Below are positions 28,422 to 31,557 of a stretch of 32,421 bases of DNA, piece by piece. Below the pieces are notes generated by a model. That model was given only the letters and a program-made list of their open reading frames with translations, did no database searches and had not been told where the DNA came from. Positions within the stretch are counted from its first letter, which is position 1. Every line of letters begins with the position of its first letter. A program made the position numbers and the translations under genes. Location: assembly GCA_025928885.1 (NCBI GenBank), contig JAICIM010000008.1:1-32421 (forward strand), in the 5' to 3' direction. The DNA is from Ktedonobacteraceae bacterium (lineage in GTDB: Bacteria > Chloroflexota > Ktedonobacteria > Ktedonobacterales > Ktedonobacteraceae).

Positions 28422-29924
28422 TTATCGTGGTGTCGCTTCCTGAAGGGCTGTAACACTCATCTTCTCCTGGGCTGGATCATTCTGCCCTTTTTTGGGAGAT
28501 CGCAGCAGCGAGACAGACAGCAATGTCGCGATTGCCATCACCACAAGAGCCGATACTGATACGACAAAGGCTCGTCCATAGGGCAGAGCGGACAGGCGAG
28601 CAATCTGTCCGGGGGTGGTGGACCCCAACACTTCGAAGAAGATGACTCCTATCACTGCGACTCCTATGGCGTTAGAAAGCTGAACTGCGGTCGTCAATAA
28701 GCCTGAAGCTGCACCGGCATCCTGAGATCGGATATCGCTCAACACGACGTTCATCAGAGGGGCGCCGATCATACCTCCACCCAGACCGAAGACCAGCAGA
28801 GGCAGGAGCAATTGATCCTGCGGTATTCGCATTCCAGCTTGTAACACAGCCATGATGATCCAAAGTTCTCCTATGCCCATCACCAGCGCCCCGCTACGCA
28901 GCACCCACTTGCCTCCTATGAGGGACACAACACGTGGGACCAGCAGTGAAGTGAAGAAGAAACCCAGGCCTATAGGCAGGTAAGTTAGCCCGGCAACCAG
29001 GGGTGAGAAGCCAAGCCCAAATTGCAGGTAGAGTGCGAGTGTAAAGAACAGAGCGCCATTGGCACTATAAAAAACCAGGGCCGTGAGCATGCCTAAAACA
29101 AAGTTGCGCTGTCGGAACAGAGCAAGCGGTACGAGTGGCGAGCCTCCCTGTCGAGTCAAACGGTGCTCATAGAACACAAAGAGCGCTAACACTGGCACTG
29201 ACAAGAACAGAGCAAGGAAGATCCACAGGGGCCAACCAAGATCATGTCCTTCGATCAGTGGATAGGCCAGCAAGAAGAGTCCCACCGTCAAGATCCCCAC
29301 CCCTATCAGATCCAGGCGGCGAGCACCAGGCTGGGCGAACTCGCGAACCAGAGGAATAGATGCCAGCAAAGTCAGAACGCCAACGGGAACGTTGATGAAA
29401 AAGATGCTACGCCAGCCTACATCGAAAACATTACTACCAATGAGGAGGCCTCCGACGATTTGCCCGGCGATGGACGCCAGGCCGAGAGTCGCCCCGTAAC
29501 AACCTAGCGCAATGACGCGTTGTGGACCGGAAAATGTGACCTGAATAAGCGCGATAACCTGGGGTATCATCAACGCAGCAGAACACCCTTGCACAAGCCG
29601 GAAGACAATCAGCATAGTGGCGTTGGGGGCGAAACCACAGAGCAGAGAAGTCAGCGTAAAACTGAGTACGCCCCATTGAAAGAGTCGTTTGCGTCCGTAC
29701 AGGTCGCCCAGTCGCCCTCCTGTGATGAGCAGCACCGCATAGCAGAGAGTATAACCGGCGATGACCAGCTCAACCTGTGCGAAGGTGCTGTGCAAACTCT
29801 GCTGAATCGAGGGGATACCAACATTCACCACAAACATGTCCAGCGTCCCCATAAAGGTGCCGGCGAGAATGACGAGTAATGACCACCAGCGCCGTGAGGA
29901 AACTGGTTTCTCAAGAATGTGCAT
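28422..29924 (-). CDS. MFS drug exporter (DHA2, EmrB/QacA type, 14 TM)
   Basis: 500 residues from the ATG at 29924, with AAAGG upstream; the open frame runs on to 30227 but those residues are polar and unlike the family. The first helix is WWSLLVILAGTFMGTLDMFVVNVG with the DHA2-type LD..VVNVA motif. Motif A is GRLGDLYGRKRLF. About 14 hydrophobic segments follow, and the C-terminal tail is charged. It should export a drug or metabolite by proton antiport. The two direct GGTCAAAGGTC words just before the ATG overlap the ribosome site. It is divergent from the sigma-factor gene. Confidence 0.92.
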   Translation of the reverse strand: MHILEKPVSSRRWWSLLVILAGTFMGTLDMFVVNVGIPSIQQSLHSTFAQVELVIAGYTLCYAVLLITGGRLGDLYGRKRLFQWGVLSFTLTSLLCGFAPNATMLIVFRLVQGCSAALMIPQVIALIQVTFSGPQRVIALGCYGATLGLASIAGQIVGGLLIGSNVFDVGWRSIFFINVPVGVLTLLASIPLVREFAQPGARRLDLIGVGILTVGLFLLAYPLIEGHDLGWPLWIFLALFLSVPVLALFVFYEHRLTRQGGSPLVPLALFRQRNFVLGMLTALVFYSANGALFFTLALYLQFGLGFSPLVAGLTYLPIGLGFFFTSLLVPRVVSLIGGKWVLRSGALVMGIGELWIIMAVLQAGMRIPQDQLLLPLLVFGLGGGMIGAPLMNVVLSDIRSQDAGAASGLLTTAVQLSNAIGVAVIGVIFFEVLGSTTPGQIARLSALPYGRAFVVSVSALVVMAIATLLSVSLLRSPKKGQNDPAQEKMSVTALQEATPR

Positions 29925-29938
29925 GACCTTTGACCTTT

Positions 29939-30169
29939 CTATCGTTTGAACTCGATGAGATCCGATAGATCCCCTCTGCGATTTGATTGATCTGAACCAT
30001 GAATACCATCTCCTTCTTCTGGTAGGATCGTGCTTGTTTCCCAATAGATACTCATGAAACTGTCGTGAAGAGCAAAACGGTGCGGTCTGAGAGGAGGTAT
30101 TTTCAGCTTGCTCTGACAGATGACACCCACGATTTTGGAACACTTGGACAAGGAGCAAAGAACCTGCAC
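29939..30169 (-). CDS. Possible small ORF ahead of the MFS gene, carrying the mirrored peptide
   Basis: Up to 76 residues (GTG start, no clear ribosome site), ending 14 bp before the MFS start. It contains KIPPLRPHRFALHDSF (minus strand, 30104-30057), nearly the same as in the ORF at 30230 on the other strand. Between the copies, differences in this stretch are synonymous or conservative (L/I), which is what a coding sequence would show. No family recognised. It may be a leader peptide or a decayed duplicate. Confidence 0.3.
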   Translation of the reverse strand: MQVLCSLSKCSKIVGVICQSKLKIPPLRPHRFALHDSFMSIYWETSTILPEEGDGIHGSDQSNRRGDLSDLIEFKR

Positions 30170-30309
30170 CGTGTGGTAAAATGAGCGTGTTTAGCGCAAG
30201 AGTATCGCAGCAGTGGCCTGTTTGCATTGATGAGCCAATTCAAGGATGCACATGCTGAGCAGAAAATACCTCCCATCAGACCGCACCGTTTTGCTCTTCA
30301 CGACAGTTT
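30057..30309. repeat. 48-bp near-perfect inverted duplication in the MFS/sigma divergent region
   Basis: 30057-30104 and the complement of 30262-30309 agree at 46 of 48 positions. Beyond the outer ends the similarity continues for about 17 bp at lower identity. The arms are 157 bp apart and lie symmetrically in front of the two divergent genes. They may be duplicated control regions, peptide-coding repeats or the ends of a small mobile element. Confidence 0.9.
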
Positions 30310-30415
30310 TATAAGTAGCTATCCGCCTGGGGACGCTCCGATGAGAGTGGGCGAGCGAAGAGGGGTAGCATACTCAAGGAGAGCAGGTCGAAAAAGATGG
30401 GAACACATCCAATAG
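30230..30415 (+). CDS. Possible small ORF ahead of the sigma gene, carrying the mirrored peptide
   Basis: 61 residues from the ATG at 30230, ending inside the sigma-factor gene (19-bp overlap with its start at 30397). KIPPIRPHRFALHDSF is shared with the ORF on the opposite strand at 29939. The rest (arginine-rich tail RRAGRKRWEHIQ) is not shared. The overlap would allow translational coupling to the sigma factor. No ribosome site is convincing, and no family is recognised. Confidence 0.3.
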   Translation: MSQFKDAHAEQKIPPIRPHRFALHDSFISSYPPGDAPMRVGERRGVAYSRRAGRKRWEHIQ

Positions 30416-31557
30416 CCCGGACAGGTGCGAGAGTCCCAGCAAACAGAACTCTCCCCAAAAACATGGCGACCAGAGGAAGTAGTGTGACAGAGAAACACAG
30501 GAAGACTGATCACGTTCATGAGGCTCTGATCACAGAGGTTGCTGCCCATAGCCAGTCTGAGAGCGGCCCCTTGATAGAACCCTATCGCAGGGAGTTACTT
30601 CTGCACTGTTATCGCCTTCTGGGATCGTTGCACGATGCCGAGGATGCGGTGCAAGAAACCATGCTGCGGGCCTGGAGACATTTTGACACATTTACGGATC
30701 GGGGTCCGGGATCGTTGCGTACCTGGCTGTACACGATTGCGACCAATACGAGCCTCGACACGCTCAAGAAACGCTCGTCGCGCACGCTGCCAACCACAAC
30801 CTCTTCTGCGTCGGACCCATTACTTCCGATTGCTCCCAGGAGTGCCGAGACCCTTTGGCTTGAGCCTTTCCCTGACAGTTGTCTGGCCTCGGCGCAGGAG
30901 CAGACGGAGAACCCGGAGGCACGCTATACCAGGTACGAGAGCGTTTCATTGGCCTTCCTCACGGCTCTTCAGTTGCTGCCCCCTCGCCAACGAGCCATCT
31001 TGCTGCTCTCAGATGTGCTGGACTGGCGTGCGAGCGAGGTTGCGCACCTCCTTGAGATCTCGGTAGGAGCGGTGAAAAGCGCTCTGCGCCGCGCCAGGGT
31101 GACGTTGGAGAAAAACTATCAACGCCAGCAGCCTGAGAGGGTGCAATTCGGTTGCACGGATGCCTCCATCAACTCGTTGCTCTCGCGCTATCTGCACGCG
31201 TGGGAAACTGACGATGTGGATGGACTCGTGGCGCTGCTGAAAGAAGACGCGACATTTTCTATGCCACCAGTTCCTTCGTGGTATCAGGGACGAGAAGCCA
31301 TTCGCACCATCCTGCTTGCCGCAGTCTTCCCGTCTGGCGTGCAGAAGCGATGGCGTTTATATTTGACACGTGCCAATGGACAGCCAGCAGTGGCTTTGTA
31401 TCGAGCCGATGAAGCGACGGGGGCCTATCGAGCATTCGGGATTCAAGTCATCACACTTGATGATGTGCGGCTTCCCAGGCAGATTGCTGAGATAACGGCT
31501 TTCCTCGGTCAGGAACTGGTCACCTCCTTCGGATTCCCGCTTCAACTCTGCCACTAA
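30397..31557 (+). CDS. ECF-type sigma-70 factor with SnoaL-like C-terminal domain (TIGR02960-like)
   Basis: 386 residues. Region 2 spans about 50-105: YRRELLLHCYRLLGSLHDAE, VQETMLRAWRHF, LRTWLYTIATNTSLDTL. A linker carries LWLEPFPDS, typical of the long sigma group often named SigX5/TIGR02960. Region 4 (about 188-245) is LQLLPPRQRAILLLSDVLDW, then ASEVAHLLEISVGAVKSALRRAR. The last 130 residues (LLSRYLHAWETDDVDGLVALL, FSMPPVPSWYQGREAIRTIL) form a SnoaL/NTF2-like domain, which in related ECF groups senses ligands or replaces an anti-sigma factor. No anti-sigma gene is adjacent. It is divergent from the MFS exporter. The start at 30397 is preferred over 30460, but the ribosome site is imperfect. 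Confidence 0.88.
   Translation: MGTHPIARTGARVPANRTLPKNMATRGSSVTEKHRKTDHVHEALITEVAAHSQSESGPLIEPYRRELLLHCYRLLGSLHDAEDAVQETMLRAWRHFDTFTDRGPGSLRTWLYTIATNTSLDTLKKRSSRTLPTTTSSASDPLLPIAPRSAETLWLEPFPDSCLASAQEQTENPEARYTRYESVSLAFLTALQLLPPRQRAILLLSDVLDWRASEVAHLLEISVGAVKSALRRARVTLEKNYQRQQPERVQFGCTDASINSLLSRYLHAWETDDVDGLVALLKEDATFSMPPVPSWYQGREAIRTILLAAVFPSGVQKRWRLYLTRANGQPAVALYRADEATGAYRAFGIQVITLDDVRLPRQIAEITAFLGQELVTSFGFPLQLCH

Follow-up and report, generated by a model that had tools for sequence, protein, structure and literature searches.

The window, a 32,421-nt stretch of DNA from a member of the Ktedonobacteraceae, carries a divergently arranged pair of genes encoding an MFS transporter and a sigma factor, with two inverted arms in the interval between them (Table 1). 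The family belongs to the Ktedonobacteria, which are soil bacteria with large genomes. The sigma factor scored 343.1 bits against TIGR02960, for which the curated cut-off is 264.75, and was also matched by PF04542, PF08281 and PF12680. Translation of this gene probably begins at the GTG listed in the table, which stands behind a GAGGAAG sequence and is matched in relatives. The leader ahead of it is probably non-coding, although it lies within an open frame.

Table 1. Features in and around the interval between the divergent genes (positions within the window).
Feature	Position	Strand	Description
MFS transporter, DHA2/EmrB-like	28422..29924	-	divergent gene of the locus; likely start ATG 29924
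29-codon ORF MVQINQIAEGIYRISSSSNDRKVKGHAHS	29911..30000	-	AAGGAG Shine-Dalgarno; 5' remnant of an ODP/metallo-beta-lactamase-fold gene; overlaps the MFS start
Left arm	30044..30108	+	inward reading AAACTGTCG..GCAAAACGGTGCGGTCTG toward the sigma gene; outward side toward the MFS gene; ancestral arm
Inner segment between the arms	30109..30257	+	has homologues at four further loci; reversed in Ktedonosporobacter rubrisoli (G004, L089)
Extended -10, TGTGGTAAAAT	30172..30182	+	sigma-A-like; reads toward the sigma gene
Right arm	30258..30322	-	inverted copy, 91%; outward side toward the sigma gene; derived second arm
Sigma leader	30323..30483	+	similar over its first ~90 bp to outward flanking DNA at single-arm loci
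SigX5-type sigma gene	30484..31557	+	TIGR02960; sigma70 regions 2 and 4 plus SnoaL-like domain; likely start GTG 30484; longest frame from ATG 30397

The inverted arms and the peptide reading

The two arms are 65 nt each, 91% complementary and 149 nt apart. The first-pass annotation had described a mirrored 48-bp block here; two bases differ within it (CCT/CCC and CTC/ATC), and a TTC/TTT difference falls at the block edge. The block exists as described, but its extent is larger, comprising the 65-bp arms and apparently some leader DNA duplicated outside them. In a search within the genome the arm self-match had an E value of 5.9e-19, which excludes chance, and a strong hairpin is predicted at the arms (z = -12.9). 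The element has a conserved core of about 45 bp, within which AAACTGT is repeated directly at a distance of 18 bp. No relevant known RNA was identified in the block by an Rfam search. The sigma and MFS coding regions also share 14 nt in inverted orientation (30955-30968 and 29888-29901), which is likely due to chance.

Both copies had been read as encoding a peptide in a frame directed at the nearer gene, and paired leader peptides had been proposed. The peptides are present as stated, KIPPLRPHRFALHDSF on the minus strand at 30056-30103 and KIPPIRPHRFALHDSF on the plus strand at 30263-30310, in open frames that read toward the genes. The minus-strand frame ends at 29939, just ahead of the MFS start codon. 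The plus-strand frame, which stops at 30415, had been said to overlap the sigma start; it reaches only the first ATG of the longest sigma frame, and with the probable start at the GTG this overlap disappears. Expression of the MFS and sigma genes under the control of paired leader peptides from both arms is scarcely credible. When the same frame was translated in all arm-bearing loci, the open frames ranged from 25 to 231 codons with no common start, stop or length, and 1-nt deletions beside the core shift the frame (Dictyobacter kobayashii left arm, G021). The variable core positions fall on codon positions 1, 2 and 3 in numbers of 2, 1 and 2 in the five long loci, and 6, 4 and 5 in all eight, without a bias toward third positions. 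The RPHSFAL reading is kept in relatives because the DNA core is conserved, and a ribosome site is not evident ahead of either frame. The KIPP frame on the minus strand amounts to the left arm and the ODP gene remnant read out of frame.

Distribution of the arm and its genes

A sequence model of the arm was searched in 47 genomes of the class, with matches considered confident at E < 1e-3. All 31 confident matches lay in genomes of the window's family, next to a SigX5-type sigma gene or what remains of one. An exact-pattern scan of 84,980 species returned nine stretches, in Ktedonobacteria only, and the pattern was not found among the viral contigs scanned in the same way. SigX5 loci that have decayed retain the arm, with only the SnoaL part left in G020 (L022/L112) and a truncated sigma gene in G016 (L152, C1:4101319). 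At the K. racemifer C7 locus an IS605-type gene lies between the arm and the sigma gene. One weak match in the K. rubrisoli genome (L154, C1:7221404, E = 0.014) lies before a luciferase-like gene with no adjacent sigma gene; it is a possible distant member of the regulon.

These data bear on the suggestion that the block is a MITE or transposon end, which the first-pass annotation had raised as the finding that would overturn its own reading if copies proved to be scattered. The geometry resembles that of inverted terminal repeats and the hairpin is strong. However, confident copies away from SigX5 genes or their remnants were never found, viral contigs held none, no target duplication was evident, and the ancestral state is a single arm in fixed orientation. 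A mobile-element origin is thus very improbable. MITE membership, which implies multiple copies at unrelated sites, was rejected on the location of the confident matches.

A tree of forty SigX5/TIGR02960 genes from 29 genomes of the family resolved two clades with support of 100/100, and the arm-bearing loci are confined to one of them. The arm was found in none of the 17 members of the sister clade. Within the arm clade, which has 23 members, clear arms were present in 19, and a diverged single arm lay at the same place in the other four (G012, G018, G022 and G028). Single-arm loci carry the arm in one constant orientation, some 240-300 bp ahead of the sigma domain, and a divergent gene lies beyond it. 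On the tree, loci with two arms are intermixed with loci that have one, which requires at least four changes. One arm in fixed orientation is ancestral, and a second, inverted arm was added later, several times.

A sigma-A-like extended -10 motif, TGnTAnAAT, is found repeatedly in the stretch that separates the arm from the sigma gene, at a comparable relative position. In the direction of the sigma gene it is exact in 13 of the 23 loci and degenerate in several more; roughly one would be expected by an arithmetic estimate. A generic sigma-70 promoter and terminator scan returned nothing here and no good -35 was seen, so the -35 would be weak or absent. Read inward, each arm contains TGTCG-n17-CGGTC, with ECF-like spacing; the putative spacer, GCAAAACTGTG, is better conserved than the presumed -35, an unusual pattern in a promoter. 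At one EthD locus (L101) the distance from the arm to the EthD start is short. This gene context favours promotion outward from the arm rather than inward, a direction that motif conservation does not settle.

The divergent partners of single-arm loci encode luciferase-like oxidoreductases, SDR, EthD and DUF899 proteins, and those of two-arm loci encode MFS, SDR, ODP-type metallo-beta-lactamase-fold and RibD_C or alpha/beta hydrolase proteins. The DNA to the left of the window's left arm has a 96-bp match of 92% in K. racemifer, and in that species an intact ODP-type metallo-beta-lactamase-fold gene (243 residues) begins shortly beyond the arm. The window keeps only the ribosome site and the first 15 or so codons of this gene, within the 29-codon ORF. 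An efflux gene thus now occupies a control region (arm, leader and ribosome site) retained from an enzyme gene: MFS has replaced ODP as the target gene and is fused to the ribosome site and opening codons of its predecessor.

The second arm and the inner segment

A second, inverted arm lies between the inner promoter and the sigma gene at five related loci: the window, two in K. racemifer, and one each in K. rubrisoli and D. kobayashii. The DNA on the sigma side of this arm is 86-93% identical among the five, which indicates a single origin of the second arm in these loci. The sigma-side leader weakly matches, collinearly from the arm boundary, the target-side leader of other loci (E = 0.0028 with L088, a luciferase-like locus, and 0.12 with D. 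kobayashii, against 3.3 for the best shuffled control). This suggests that the duplicated unit in window-type loci was larger than the arms and included some leader DNA. The other two-arm loci (contig 282 of the window's own genome, G000; G020/G016; G004 a; and K. racemifer C7) differ in spacings and flanks and look independent.

The spacing between arm cores ranges from 12 to 187 bp. On contig 282 of the window's genome (L004/L084, 6259-6361), the arms stand almost back to back before another SigX5 gene, with 12 nt between the cores; they form a near-perfect hairpin and share a private sequence, GTCGTCGTC. A further variant was observed in G019 (L025/L074, C691, about 868-1020), where two direct copies with the palindromes TGCGGTCAGACCGCA and TCAGACCGCAGCGGTCTGA flank a TATAAT.

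Positions that vary between loci are identical in both arms of one locus (TGAAG, GGAGAG, GTAAAG, GTCGTC and the window's T-to-G change). When the arm pairings were permuted the true pairing ranked third of 120, which is only moderately significant. Variants that are private to a locus, fall at weakly conserved positions and are present in both of its arms suggest conversion between the arms.

The 149-bp inner segment of K. rubrisoli was 81-89% identical to those of the other four loci when inverted, and 49-52% identical when aligned directly. Against K. racemifer, whose C10a locus holds the closest sigma relative (98/90), the values were 89% inverted and 49% direct. The flanks are collinear and in the normal orientation, at 87% identity over about 205 bp on the sigma side and 78% over 207 bp on the SDR side relative to D. 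kobayashii. The inner arm ends are exchanged in K. rubrisoli (CTGCTTG / CTGCTCA), as predicted by a crossover within the arms, and the -10 motif is flipped along with the segment and lies antisense to the sigma gene. The comparison used one assembly per species, and the apparent inversion may be an assembly error.

Interpretation and comparison with known systems

Taken together, it is reasonably likely that the block is a cis-regulatory element of one SigX5 ECF clade in the Ktedonobacteraceae and of the divergent metabolic or efflux gene, duplicated in mirror image. Its ancestral copy stands in fixed orientation between the divergent and sigma genes, upstream of a conserved sigma-A-like -10 reading toward the latter. 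A subset of loci, the window among them, has a second, inverted copy between this promoter and the sigma gene, with the result that a near-identical copy faces each gene. The element could act as promoter or operator in the control of the divergent target by the sigma factor (or a partner), in which case the inverted copy would place the sigma gene under the same control and establish autoregulation. Recombination between the near-identical arms would keep them alike and might occasionally invert the inner promoter, as in K. rubrisoli. The cis-regulatory reading is supported by the restriction of confident matches to SigX5-type genes or remnants, and by a divergent partner that varies while the arm stays. 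The weak L154 match without a neighbouring sigma gene counts against it, as do the lack of a match to the published ECF41 promoter and the apparent absence of autoregulation in SigG1 (see below). The earlier proposal of a regulatory module copied for both directions was largely right, in that the arm precedes members of one SigX5 clade and a subset of these has the second, inverted arm.

The K. rubrisoli locus raises the question of a dedicated phase-variation switch, with the 65-bp arms as substrate of a recombinase that would turn the inner promoter toward either the sigma gene or the divergent gene. The inverted segment, its collinear flanks, the swapped last bases of the arms and a promoter-like -10 that flips with the segment are all consistent with this. 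However, the segment is inverted in one locus of five and two orientations within one species were not seen. Because the arm is single in many loci, its origin is not that of a recombination site. A Pfam scan of the window proteins, covering part of the ORFs, found no recombinase, and ordinary homologous recombination would suffice. We consider such a switch rather unlikely. Control of this Chloroflexota sigma gene by an invertible promoter derived from the regulatory element of the sigma factor itself, switching between expression of the sigma factor and of the divergent target, is unlikely as well; the case for a true switch comes from one inverted locus. If it were true, the mirror copy would both serve the two genes and let the promoter between them flip.

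It is also quite unlikely that the arms are a dual operator, at which a dimeric regulator binds both copies and loops the inner promoter for repression or activation. The arms that bracket the inner promoter in two-arm loci, the G019 variant (L025) with two direct copies around TATAAT, and the AAACTGT repeat within the core would suit such an arrangement. Many loci are single-armed, however, the distance between arm cores is far from constant, and no regulator gene other than the sigma factor is conserved nearby.

The preferred cis-regulatory reading provides a regulatory element tied by comparison to SigX5 sigma genes of Ktedonobacteria; a literature search found no regulatory map of SigX5 (ECF plus SnoaL) sigma factors in this class. 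It also illustrates how a divergent control region, once duplicated in mirror image, can change from a one-way to a symmetric arrangement and can seed an invertible promoter.

Among known systems, the closest parallels include ECF41 factors with their COE target promoters, where genes next to the sigma gene are addressed by way of a motif that precedes the target and, in some cases, the sigma gene as well (Wecke et al. 2012, PMC3426412). The published ECF41 promoter is TGTCACA-n16-CGTC, and the proteins carry YVGPWLPEP in the linker and NPDKL at the C-terminus (PMC7730460). The present locus is similar in combining an ECF sigma factor that has a fused SnoaL-like C-terminal domain with a neighbouring oxidoreductase-type target and a conserved upstream motif. 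It differs in that the window sigma factor is of the TIGR02960/SigX5 type, the block is conserved over a greater length and a promoter stands between inverted copies of it. Neither YVGPWLPEP nor NPDKL occurs in the window sigma protein and TGTCACA-n16-CGTC is absent from 29900-30500; ECF41 identity was rejected on the absence of these protein and promoter motifs.

The ECF56 factor SigG1 of Streptomyces tsukubaensis has an anti-sigma partner, RsfG, and a CCG / CCCTCC motif, and leaves its own promoter unbound (PMC7730460). SigG1 is likewise an ECF factor with a SnoaL_2 domain, but the conserved partner here is a divergent metabolic or efflux gene rather than an anti-sigma gene. Unlike in invertons, the opposite orientations were seen between species only, the arms also occur as a stand-alone, putatively regulatory element, and no cognate invertase was found among the window proteins scanned. 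As in invertons, for example those of the Bacteroidales (PMC8748976), inverted repeats flank a promoter-like sequence, here 65-bp arms (91%) around the extended -10, and both orientations are present among related loci, with K. rubrisoli set against the other four.
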